Shown one piece after another: positions 58,673 to 61,548 of a stretch of 64,000 bases of DNA. The notes under the pieces are model-generated. The model saw only the letters and a program-made list of their open reading frames with translations. It searched no databases and was not told where the DNA came from. Every line of letters begins with the position of its first letter. Position 1 is the stretch's first letter. The stretch lies in assembly GCF_000759445.1 (NCBI RefSeq), contig NZ_JRMB01000001.1:2418001-2482000 (forward strand), in the 5' to 3' direction. The position numbers and the translations under genes are program-made. Origin of the DNA: Pseudomonas lutea. Its GTDB lineage: Bacteria; Pseudomonadota; Gammaproteobacteria; Pseudomonadales; Pseudomonadaceae.

Positions 58673-59143
58673 ATGACTCAAGTCACCAACACGCCGTACG
58701 AAGCCCTTGAAGTCGGTCAGACGGCCAGCTACAGCAAAACCGTCGAAGAGCGCCATATTCAGCTGTTCGCGGAGATGTCCGGCGACCGCAATCCGGTTCA
58801 TCTGGACGCTGAGTTCGCCGCCAAAAGCATGTTCAAGGATCGCATCGCCCACGGCATGTTCAGCGGCGCGTTGATCAGTGCGGCAGTGGCTTGTGAACTG
58901 CCGGGTCCGGGCACGATTTACCTGGGCCAGCAGATGACGTTCCAGAAGCCGGTAAAGATTGGCGATACCTTGACCGTGCGCCTGGAAATCCTCGAAAAGC
59001 TGCCGAAATTTCGCGTGCGCATCGCGACCCGCGTGTTCAACCAGAACGATGAATTGGTCGTTGATGGCGAAGCCGAGATCCTCGCCCCCCGCAAGCTGCA
59101 AACCGTGAGCCTGGCCGAGTTGCCGCCGATCACCGTGGGTTGA
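58673..59143 (+). CDS. MaoC-family (R)-specific enoyl-CoA hydratase-like protein
   Basis: This 156-aa hot-dog protein has the MaoC motif (FAEMSGDRNPVHLDAEFA) and a HGMFSGALISAAVA helix. Such enzymes hydrate enoyl-CoA to (R)-3-hydroxyacyl-CoA (PhaJ role). AGGA precedes the ATG. It lies 39 bp after the hydrolase and may share its transcript. Confidence 0.9.
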   Translation: MTQVTNTPYEALEVGQTASYSKTVEERHIQLFAEMSGDRNPVHLDAEFAAKSMFKDRIAHGMFSGALISAAVACELPGPGTIYLGQQMTFQKPVKIGDTLTVRLEILEKLPKFRVRIATRVFNQNDELVVDGEAEILAPRKLQTVSLAELPPITVG

Positions 59144-59219
59144 TCGAGGCTGCGAGGGCGGTTGGTTGGCGAATGCATGTGATTTGACGCTGGATGGCCG
59201 TGCGTAGATTGCATATGTT

Positions 59220-59591
59220 CAGATGCTGAATGGGCGTAGCGCAGGTCCGGTTCGCCAGCAAGCCGGCTCCTACAGTGGATCGGCGTCGACACCAAAATCT
59301 GCGCTTTGCACAAGAATCCGTAGGATCGGCGTCGACACTAAAATCTGCGCCTCGCACAAAATCCGTAGGAGCCGGCTTGCTGGCGAATGCTTGCGTTCAG
59401 CCACCGCATGGCTGTGGGCGGATGGCATATTTTTCCGCTGCACCACCGTGCGCAGATTGCATATGTTCTTCCGCTGCACCACCGTGCGCAGATTCCATGT
59501 GTTCTTCCGCTGCACGGTCGTGCGTAGATTGCATGTGTTCAGATGCTGCATGGGCGTAGCGCAGGTCCGGTTCGCCAGCAAGCCGGCTCCT
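59220..59591. repeat. Composite repeat array, left part (interrupted by IS110)
   Basis: It combines REPs, ATCGGCGTCGACACTAAAATCTGC units, and a 36-bp tandem around TTCTTCCGCTGCACCACCGTG (59436-59530, about 3 copies). It ends in AAGCCGGCTCCT at the IS junction. The same array resumes at 60930 with CTACAGTGGATCGG, so the IS split a single REP. Confidence 0.9.
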
Positions 59592-59825
59592 TGTATCTCG
59601 ACTTTGTCTTCTCAGAAGGTAAAGTTCTCGACTGATCATCGAGGGAAAGGCGTGAAGATGACCGGCTCCTAGTGGCGTTGTAGCCTGCGAAGTAGATCCA
59701 TTCTCCGCCTTTCCAACCTCACTCATTGAGCTCGTACGATATCTAGAGCCACTTTGTGAGCTCGCATTTACAAGGTCGAAGCCGAGTGACGCGATGATTG
59801 ATCTTTAGTTGAAAAGGAGAACAGC
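59592..59825 (+). ncRNA. Candidate IS110 bridge RNA (left end)
   Basis: Segments match, in order, as in the IS621 bridge RNA. Left-target guide CCGGCTCCT (59662-59670) equals target 59583-59591. Right-target guide TGTAG (59679-59683) is complementary to CTACA (60930-60934). Left-donor guide ACGATATCT (59736-59744) equals the right end 60923-60931. Right-donor guide TACAAG (59769-59774) is complementary to CTTGTA (59590-59595). The core CT is included in all four. Transcript ends and folding are not shown by sequence. Confidence 0.75.
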
Positions 59826-60797
59826 ATGTCTTCATTCGTTGGCGTTGACATGGCCAAGAATACTTTTGATGTTGCGACGCCGTTGGACAATGGCAAACAC
59901 CGCACCAAGGGCAAGTTGAGCAATGATGCCAAGGGCTTTGCCGAGTTCGAGTCCTGGCTTCGCAAGCACGCCACAGCGGACGCGCTGATTGTCATCGAGG
60001 CCACGGGTAATTATCACGAAGCGTTGGCTGACTTCCTTTTTCAAAAGGGATATCGGCTTCATATCGCGAACCCTGCCACCACCGCCGCTCACGCCAAGTC
60101 GGAGTTGTCACGCAACAAGACTGACAAGACTGACGCCAAACTCATCTCCGATTTCGCCATGCAGAAGCATCGCAAGTTACGGCTTTGGGTGCCTGAGCCA
60201 CAGTCGCGGCGCCGTCTGAGGGCTTTGGTCCGCCGCTTGGAAGATCTCAACGAGATCCGCCAGATGGAGAAAAACCGCTTGGAAGTTGCCAGCCCGAACG
60301 TCGTAACGTCGATCGAATCGGTGATTGCTCATGTCTTGGAAGAAATCACCAAAACGGAAAAAGCGATCAAGCAACACATCGACGATGATCCTGACCTACG
60401 CGGCAAGAGCGAGTTGATGACCTCCATTGATGGTCTAGGCGAGAAGACCGCCGCGCTGATCCTCGCGGAACTGGGAGACCCTCTGGACTACGAAGGACCG
60501 AAAAAACTTTCTGCCTTCGCTGGATTATCGCCCAGACAGGACCGCTCTGGAGGCTACGTGGGTCCAACCCGCATAAGTCGAACCGGCTCGTCGCGACTCA
60601 GGGGCGGCCTTTACATGCCCGCGATCGTAGGAATACAACACAATGTGGTGCTGAGAGAGTTCGCCAAGAGATTGAAGGCGAACGGAAAGGCTCCCCGGCA
60701 AATTATCTGTGCAGTGATGCGTAAGATGTTGCACTTGGTCTATGGCGTGCTTAAAAGCAACAGGCCTTTCGAACCTGAAATTGCTTTGGCTCATTAA
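59826..60797 (+). CDS. IS110-family recombinase (transposase)
   Basis: This 323-aa protein has the RuvC-like DEDD domain (Asp8 in GVDMAK, Glu58 in VIEATGNYH, Asp100 and Asp103 in KTDKTDAKLI) and the C-terminal Transposase_20 domain with probable catalytic Ser241 in PRQDRSGGYVG. These match the positions of IS621 (D11, E60, D102, D105, S241). AAGGAG is 7 nt before the ATG. All catalytic residues are present, so it appears functional. Confidence 0.95.
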   Translation: MSSFVGVDMAKNTFDVATPLDNGKHRTKGKLSNDAKGFAEFESWLRKHATADALIVIEATGNYHEALADFLFQKGYRLHIANPATTAAHAKSELSRNKTDKTDAKLISDFAMQKHRKLRLWVPEPQSRRRLRALVRRLEDLNEIRQMEKNRLEVASPNVVTSIESVIAHVLEEITKTEKAIKQHIDDDPDLRGKSELMTSIDGLGEKTAALILAELGDPLDYEGPKKLSAFAGLSPRQDRSGGYVGPTRISRTGSSRLRGGLYMPAIVGIQHNVVLREFAKRLKANGKAPRQIICAVMRKMLHLVYGVLKSNRPFEPEIALAH

Positions 60798-60929
60798 CGG
60801 CTGATCAAGTAGGACTTGAATGGCTAGGATGTCGCTGCGGGATGGGCCGCGGGCGTATATTCGTGCCTGCTTGAAAAGCAGCAGCGCTAGCGCGCTGCTG
60901 GGCTTGCAGTAGGAGCATTAAGACGATAT

Positions 60930-61297
60930 CTACAGTGGATCGGCGTGATGATCAGAATCTGCGCTCTGCACAAAATCCGTAGGATCGGCGCCGACACTAA
61001 AATCTGCGCCTCGCACAAAATGCGTAGGAGCCGGCTTGCTGGCGAATGCTTGCGTTCAGCCTCCGCATGGCTGTGGCGGACTGCATGTGCTCAGACGCGA
61101 CGTCGTCGTGCGTAGATTGCATGTGTTCAGATGCTGCATGGGCGTAGCGCAGGTCCGGTTCGCCAGCAAGCCGGCTCCTACAGTGGATCGGCGTGATGAT
61201 CAGAATCTGCGCTCTGCACAAAATCCGTAGGATCGGCGCCGACACTAAAATCTGCGCCTCGCACAAAATCCGTAGGAGCCGGCTTGCTGGCGAATGC
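60930..61297. repeat. Composite repeat array, right part
   Basis: It resumes the REP split by the IS (CTACAGTGGATCGGCGTGAT at 60930) and repeats the same unit at 61181 (CTACAGTGGATCGGCGTGAT again), a period of about 251 bp, with REPs at 61026 and 61273. It ends 1-2 nt before the phrS terminator. Confidence 0.9.
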
Positions 61298-61304
61298 AAA
61301 AAAA

Positions 61305-61326
61305 ACGGGCAACCGAAGTTGCCCGT
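61305..61326 (-). terminator. Terminator of the phrS-like RNA
   Basis: ACGGGCAA / TTGCCCGT form an 8-bp perfect stem with loop CTTCGG, followed on the minus strand by TTTTTTTT. The IS/REP array abuts it directly. Confidence 0.92.
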
Positions 61327-61367
61327 CATGCCCCGGTCCCGCGTTGCGTGCTCTTTTTATAAAAGCC

Positions 61368-61484
61368 TCAGCGTCTCGCGCGCCGGGTTGAGTCTTTCCG
61401 GGCGAACAGTGCGATGCCTGAGTAAATCACCATCAGCAACCCCACCGTCATGACGCCGGCTATTACCGCGTGGTCGAGAAACAT
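61368..61484 (-). CDS. Small membrane peptide in the PhrS-like RNA (CcoM-like?)
   Basis: This 38-codon ORF (starts MFLDHAVIAGVMTVGLLMV, ends RRARR) predicts one TM helix and a basic tail. AGAGGG lies 7 nt before the ATG. P. aeruginosa PhrS carries a 37-codon ORF at this position. It resembles small cbb3-oxidase-associated peptides (CcoM), which would fit ANR control, but this is from memory and tentative. Confidence 0.7.
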   Translation of the reverse strand: MFLDHAVIAGVMTVGLLMVIYSGIALFARKDSTRRARR

Positions 61485-61548
61485 GCGAGCGCCCTCTGCC
61501 TGGCTCTGTTTGATGAGCAAAGGTTAACCGCAGGTTTGCGGGGAGGAC

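Follow-up and report, generated by a model that had tools for sequence, protein, structure and literature searches.

The 64,000-nt stretch of Pseudomonas lutea DNA analyzed here (the window) contains a mobile element inserted in the tail of a REP, within a REP array, and the question raised by this locus is what directs such an element to its site: an RNA guide carried by the element, or the recombinase recognizing the REP palindrome by itself. IS621 from Escherichia coli is described as inserting in REPs via a bridge RNA (PMC11208160), and we consider it about 95% probable that the window element is an IS110-group element of the cut-out-and-insert type that functions in the manner of IS621 and is guided by a bridge RNA to a REP. 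The coordinates of all features are given in Table 1.

Five identical copies with differing outer flanks, together with an empty site, settle the ends of the element and its CT core without recourse to another strain. The genome search identified these copies in the source genome (G000), identical over all 1340 bp and all preceded by the same left flank, TTCGCCAGCAAGCCGGCTCCT; the right flanks begin with ACAG in four cases and with ACGA in one. The CT cores are found immediately before the element (59590-59591) and as its last bases (60930-60931). The original prediction had placed the ends and the cores in these very positions, and the two tests it proposed agree with them: the four other copies all follow CCGGCTCCT, with the guides unchanged, and an empty site, found here in the same genome (61140-61219, 80/80 bases), yields the same ends (a second match to the joined flanks, at 59232-59311, has 7 mismatches). 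Moreover, among the matches listed for relatives the left end is the same and the right end alike, which supports these boundaries, and the CT core is common to target and donor, except for one copy in G266, which has CC at the right end. The search of phage records gave no match.

Table 1. Features of the IS110-group element and its surroundings (window coordinates).
Feature	Position	Strand	Remarks
Whole IS110-group element	59592..60931	+	1340 bp; five identical copies; empty site
Left target (REP tail) CCGGCTCCT	59583..59591	+	last two bases are the core
Right target flank ACAG	60932..60935	+	continues REP tail CTACAG
Empty copy of the same REP site	61140..61219	+	80/80 bases as in joined flanks of the window copy; same REP array
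Bridge RNA region (left non-coding end)	59592..59800	+	5' stem-loop, target-binding loop, donor-binding loop
5' stem-loop	59600..59626	+	changes on both sides in 7/10 consensus pairs
Target-binding loop	59644..59714	+	stem 59644-59650 with 59708-59714
Left target guide (LTG) CCGGCTCCT	59662..59670	+	same as left flank 59583-59591
TGTAG of the original prediction	59679..59683	+	in target-loop apical hairpin between the target guides; not a guide
Right target guide (RTG) GTAG	59692..59695	+	complementary to top-strand CTAC in the target; corresponds to IS621 G77-G80
Putative target-loop handshake guide AT	59696..59697	+	would correspond to IS621 A81-U82
Donor-binding loop	59720..59788	+	stem 59720-59724 with 59784-59788
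Left donor guide (LDG) ACGATATCT	59736..59744	+	same as right end 60923-60931; IS621 counterpart is 8 nt
Right donor guide (RDG) ATTTACAAG	59766..59774	+	by homology to IS621 (ATTTGCAAG); discontiguous pairing with left-end CTTGTAT
Putative donor-loop handshake base G	59775	+	complementary to target base 7 (C); suggested by IS621
IS110 recombinase, 323 aa	59826..60797	+	D8, E58, D100, D103, S241 at IS621 catalytic positions
Right end with -35-like TTGCAG (60904-60909)	60904..60931	+	17 nt before TATCTT formed only by joined ends; presumed promoter activity

The recombinase is a DEDD (RuvC-like) enzyme with the C-terminal PF02371 domain and the catalytic serine, as in the IS110 group. Both PF01548 and PF02371 of Pfam score above the cut-off, the NCBIfam model NF033542 ('IS110 family RNA-guided transposase') scores 223.7 bits (the cut-off being 140), and at E<=0.001 the only PDB sequences matched are IS621 (8wt6, E 1.3e-65) and ISCro4 (9t56). 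The protein is about 42% identical to the IS621 recombinase and has the same catalytic residues, given for IS621 as D11, E60, D102, D105 and S241 (PMC11208158). As in IS621, the non-coding RNA region lies upstream of the gene (59592-59825, 234 nt, typical of the IS110 group), the target loop precedes the donor loop, the core is CT, and the left end starts with TGTAT. Elements of the IS1111 group carry the RNA downstream of the gene, while in the window the guides are upstream and in the IS110 order. Judged by these sequence characters, the window element is an IS110-group, IS621-like mobile element.

The guides follow one another as LTG, RTG, LDG and RDG in two internal loops, as in other IS110-group elements, provided that the RTG is taken to be at 59692-59695. 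Both 9-nt left guides proposed in the original prediction, CCGGCTCCT at 59662 and ACGATATCT at 59736, are identical to the left flank and to the right end of the element, respectively, and the proposed TACAAG (59769-59774), the reverse complement of the left-end CTTGTA, lies in the right donor guide, which has the ATTTxCAAG form seen in IS621. The LTG of IS621 is ATCGGGCCT, compared with CCGGCTCCT in the window, where the target is the Pseudomonas REP tail. The segment GTAGAT, comprising the RTG and the putative handshake bases, is also shared with IS621, in which it has been defined structurally as the RTG (G77-G80) followed by the handshake bases A81-U82 (PMC11208158). It was found in 71 of the 76 left ends read (at 59692-59697 in the window), the other five being copies from G079 with ATAGAT. 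Base 9 of the LDG is C in six relatives.

A simple calculation bears on the argument that four guide matches are hard to explain by chance. It gives the probability of a match anywhere in the 234-nt left end as approximately 0.0009 for each 9-mer, 0.06 for the 6-mer and 0.2 for the 5-mer; hence the fourth match, TGTAG, carried little weight. This 5-mer (59679-59683) had been taken for the right target guide, and it is indeed the exact reverse complement of CTACA, found at four of the five right flanks in the source genome; the fifth flank reads CTACG, however, and the same place is occupied by TATAG in G182 and G348, the closest relatives, which share this target and whose recombinases are 95-97% identical to that of the window, while in the remaining aligned relatives TGTAG is absent from it. 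As it sits in the apical hairpin of the target loop, and the IS621 RTG corresponds to 59692-59695, 13 nt beyond it, we reject this assignment and give it only a very small chance of being correct. Thus a reader working from the sequence alone can find three of the four guides, the right target guide being the one easily misplaced.

Both guide-bearing loops, which the original prediction expected to appear on folding and in the IS621 order, were recovered, together with the 5' stem-loop, from the RNAalifold consensus of 25 aligned left ends. The alignment took 25 of the 34 distinct left ends (the window sequence replaces L003, and L026 was omitted beforehand), the other nine being further copies from the same hosts and L059 (G012). 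In this consensus, 96.9% of cells are paired and 24 of 51 pairs show changes on both sides; on each of the five measures, all 500 shuffled controls fell short of it. When the partner is slid by 1-3 columns, pairing falls to 36-42%, a comparison in which the consensus has an advantage, having been derived from the same sequences. The predicted pair of columns 153/199, joining the LDG to the RDG, is probably spurious. The window left end folded alone is not unusually stable (z -1.44, with 18 of 200 shuffles folding equally well) and is uninformative by itself. The Rfam search of window positions 59000-61500 at E<=1 yielded no bridge RNA family, the only match being the PhrS sRNA (RF01673, 94 bits, E 1.4e-22) on the minus strand at 61298-61500, a match that adjoins the REP array and is truncated at the edge of the searched region.

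When a covariance model built from the left-end alignment was run over 398 Pseudomonas genomes, 32 of them gave matches at E<=1e-5. Eight of the extra or partial matches were inspected as candidate orphan bridge RNAs without a recombinase; further partial matches lie in G088, G208, G345, G101 and G376. Among the eight, L135-L138 (G082, G237, G164 and G356, respectively) are decayed or internally deleted copies, and L139-L142 break off at contig ends or close to them. Two of the former, L137 (approximately 1519-1590, G164) and L138 (approximately 1519-1692, G356), are mini-copies that keep both ends and have lost most of the interior; both show CT-GC at the right edge.

Guides and targets change together across the genus. 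Relatives were identified in 26 of the 398 Pseudomonas genomes at E<=1e-60; since at most five candidates were scored per genome, copy numbers from this search are lower bounds. Among the 77 matches examined, the left end was readable in 76 and the right end in 73. With one copy taken per host, 27 hosts were compared, comprising 25 of the 26 relative-bearing genomes and two named records. Agreement between the LTG and the left flank extends to 9/9 positions in 24 hosts and to 8/9 positions in three (G110, G265 and G393), the flanks being of 15 distinct kinds. When guides are compared with different flanks, the mean agreement is 6.0/9, with one 9/9 case among 656 comparisons. None of 20,000 permutations reached the observed sum of LTG-flank matches in the set left after setting aside L026 (left flank cut at a limit of 320 nt) and L058/G331 (locus lacking a left end). 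The pattern of the left junction, searched for as exact matches and thus blind to T-initial targets and to the left-end variants present in G018 and G012 (0 matches each), was found at 113 junctions in 24 of the 26 genomes, with one single 9-mer per genome. Moreover, in a comparison of 24 proteins longer than 280 aa, the recombinase of G101 is 89-91% identical to those of G129, G100, G011 and G216, yet guide and target differ.

The departures from exact agreement are few. The right flank starts with AC in 71 of 73 copies, and the exceptions, AT (G182) and GC (G216), could pair with GTAG by wobble. At base 9 of the LTG, the position of the core T, G110 has A and G265 has G. By our own reading, wobble pairs would be required in G393, with guide G and target A, and in one copy from G012, with guide T and target C; in G079 ATAGAT replaces GTAGAT although the targets read CTAC. 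In 26 of the 28 element/target classes target base 7 is C and the donor-loop base is G. G101 has the opposite arrangement, with G at target base 7 and C at the donor-loop position following the RDG, possibly a handshake compensation, and the element of G086 lacks the handshake complement, having G opposite G.

Within genomes, the copies distinguish between REP variants. Site counts cover targets other than those of G086, G113, G164, G060 and G393 and the main target of G012; the copy number used for G018 is at least four, from the relative search and the left-end reading. In the source genome, free CCGGCTCCTAC sites number 640 (13 for the reversed pattern) and those of the REP-tail-like variant CGCGCTCCTAC number 509 (6 reversed); all five copies are in the former class and none in the latter, an outcome to which abundance alone gives p 0.05. 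In some other genomes the guide-matched class is used although it is the minority one. In particular, all nine copies in G079 are in CCAGCTCCT, with 103 free sites against 282 of the commoner CCGGCTCCTAC, all eight in G078 are in ACCCACCCT, with 18 free sites against 260 of the seven other counted variants, and both copies in G348 are in the matched class, with 52 free sites against 375; in G041, too, only the guide-matched REP variant is occupied, though others equal or exceed it in number. In G129, G216 and G011, among other genomes, the matched class dominates and the variant test is uninformative. The abundance model, with eight 11-mers counted, gives a product of approximately 10^-26 over 20 genomes, a figure that overstates the case, as the copies are not independent and the counted 11-mers are not all shown to be REPs. 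Hence the original prediction of a bridge RNA whose guide matches a REP stands as regards the IS621-type region, while the match is to one REP variant and not to REPs generally; CGCGCTCCT, for instance, is a REP variant distinct from the CCGGCTCCT class.

Hosts tend to be rich in the target of their own element. The enrichment is significant for four of five guides (p 0.008, 0.0001, 0.0015 and 0.003, by statistics that ignore host kinship), but not for GTCCGCCCTAC of G041 (p 0.32), and for three further guides the host ranks first (G079), second (G101) and fourth (G018) among 26 genomes in the number of its own target sites. Variants are also abundant in genomes that are not hosts of that target: CGCGCTCCTAC in G000 (509), G182 (553) and G348 (375), CCGGCTCCTAC in G079 (282), G078 (84) and G164 (80), GCCGCTCCTAC in G078 (129) and G012 (54), and ACAGCTGCTAC in G100 (123). 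In G041 (L088 and other copies), eight exact target sites are occupied and two are free, two of the copies being 1332 bp apart; judging from these counts, this element may be close to exhausting its target sites.

These observations bear directly on two other explanations of the locus. If the recombinase itself recognized the REP palindrome, by shape or by sequence, and the left-end matches were inherited or due to chance, all five source-genome copies would sit in the REP tail just as they do. Such general recognition by the protein is argued against by the copies found in guide-matched minority classes, since in G079, G078, G348 and G041 the matched variant alone is used though others are as common or commoner, and by the recombinases 89-91% identical to one another that use different targets with guides differing accordingly, so that we regard it as very improbable. 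Alternatively, the main role of the left end could be that of a leader regulating the recombinase mRNA, with the guide matches being secondary. Such a role has been proposed for ISPpu9, whose 5'-UTR (244 nt) is bound by an antisense RNA and for which the antisense sRNA Asr9 and the sense sRNA Ssr9 are described (PMC8450116). A leader and a guide are compatible roles, but the former leaves the covariation of guide and target across 15 targets unexplained, and as the main function of the region it seems very improbable. A bridge RNA directing the recombinase to one REP variant thus remains by far the preferred explanation.

The ends, the core, the guides, the catalytic residues, the conservation of the RNA structure and the covariation of guide and target can be read from the sequences; by analogy with IS621, we infer the following cycle. 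The recombinase would excise the element as a circle, in which the right end is joined to the left end at the CT core. The joined ends would create TTGCAG-17-TATCTT, from which the bridge RNA would be transcribed and then bound by the recombinase; its donor loop would pair with the circle junction (the LDG with the right end and the RDG with the left end) and its target loop with the REP tail (the LTG CCGGCTCCT with the bottom strand and the RTG GTAG with top-strand CTAC). Using its RuvC-like DEDD residues and serine 241, the recombinase would exchange strands at the CT core, so that the element would land within the REP tail CCGGCTCCT-ACAG.

The junction promoter in this scheme is a suggestion, because its hexamers have only 3-4 of 6 consensus bases. 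Of the 32 distinct junctions, 30 have a TTG box at a distance of 17 nt upstream of TATCTT, or in one case of TATCCT; L026 and G012 are off this register, the former scoring best at an IS621-like spacing and the latter having its top score elsewhere. From the start of the box to the end of the core the distance is 28 nt in the window element and, by our own reading, 21 nt in IS621. The 17-nt spacing is kept in the window group despite a right end that is approximately 115 nt longer than in most relatives. This long right end (60798-60931) is present in the window element and in G182, and a strong inverted repeat (60879-60887 with 60892-60900) lies wholly inside it. The scan of 59500-61000 for consensus promoters, which is blind to the joined junction, found none.

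Several known elements resemble this one. ISPpu9 and ISPpu10 from Pseudomonas putida are each described as having 7/7 copies in REPs, inserted after base 9 and before base 10 of the REP and showing a repeat of 2 bp (PMC1525189); by the published descriptions, they share with the window element the insertion in REPs, and ISPpu9 also the long 5'-UTR. For ISPpu9, antisense and downstream sRNAs have been reported. Its sense sRNA Ssr9, reported to be partly complementary to the 5'-UTR antisense and to occur in orphan copies too (PMC8450116), might be bridge-RNA-like. For ISPa11 from P. aeruginosa (IS1111 group), seekRNA-directed insertion in REPs is described and natural reprogramming is mentioned (PMC11187229). 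It is similar to the window element in RNA-directed insertion in a Pseudomonas REP and differs, according to the same source, in having the RNA downstream of the gene, the reversed guide order and subterminal inverted repeats. Concordance of guides and targets across IS110 orthologues has already been published (PMC11208160). The literature search, covering titles and abstract starts, with most subscription papers and bioRxiv preprints outside its range, found no paper on bridge-RNA guides following REP variants in Pseudomonas.

A REP-targeting bridge RNA is thus already known from IS621, and what is of interest here is the natural guide-target series and the discrimination of REP variants within a genome. 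The series is a natural data set for the rules of bridge RNAs, with fifteen targets, related recombinases and genuine exceptions in the form of wobble pairs, a mismatch tolerated at base 9 in the core and one altered handshake, and it makes the choice between RNA guides and protein recognition of the palindrome in REP-associated insertion directly testable. We tentatively propose, at somewhat less than even odds, that a single Pseudomonas IS110 lineage has kept its bridge-RNA frame while the 9-base target guide was rewritten to the REP variant abundant in each host, sometimes together with the handshake base, as in G101; the turnover of REPs would thus be the force behind natural reprogramming, and an element, as in G041, may come near to exhausting its matched sites.
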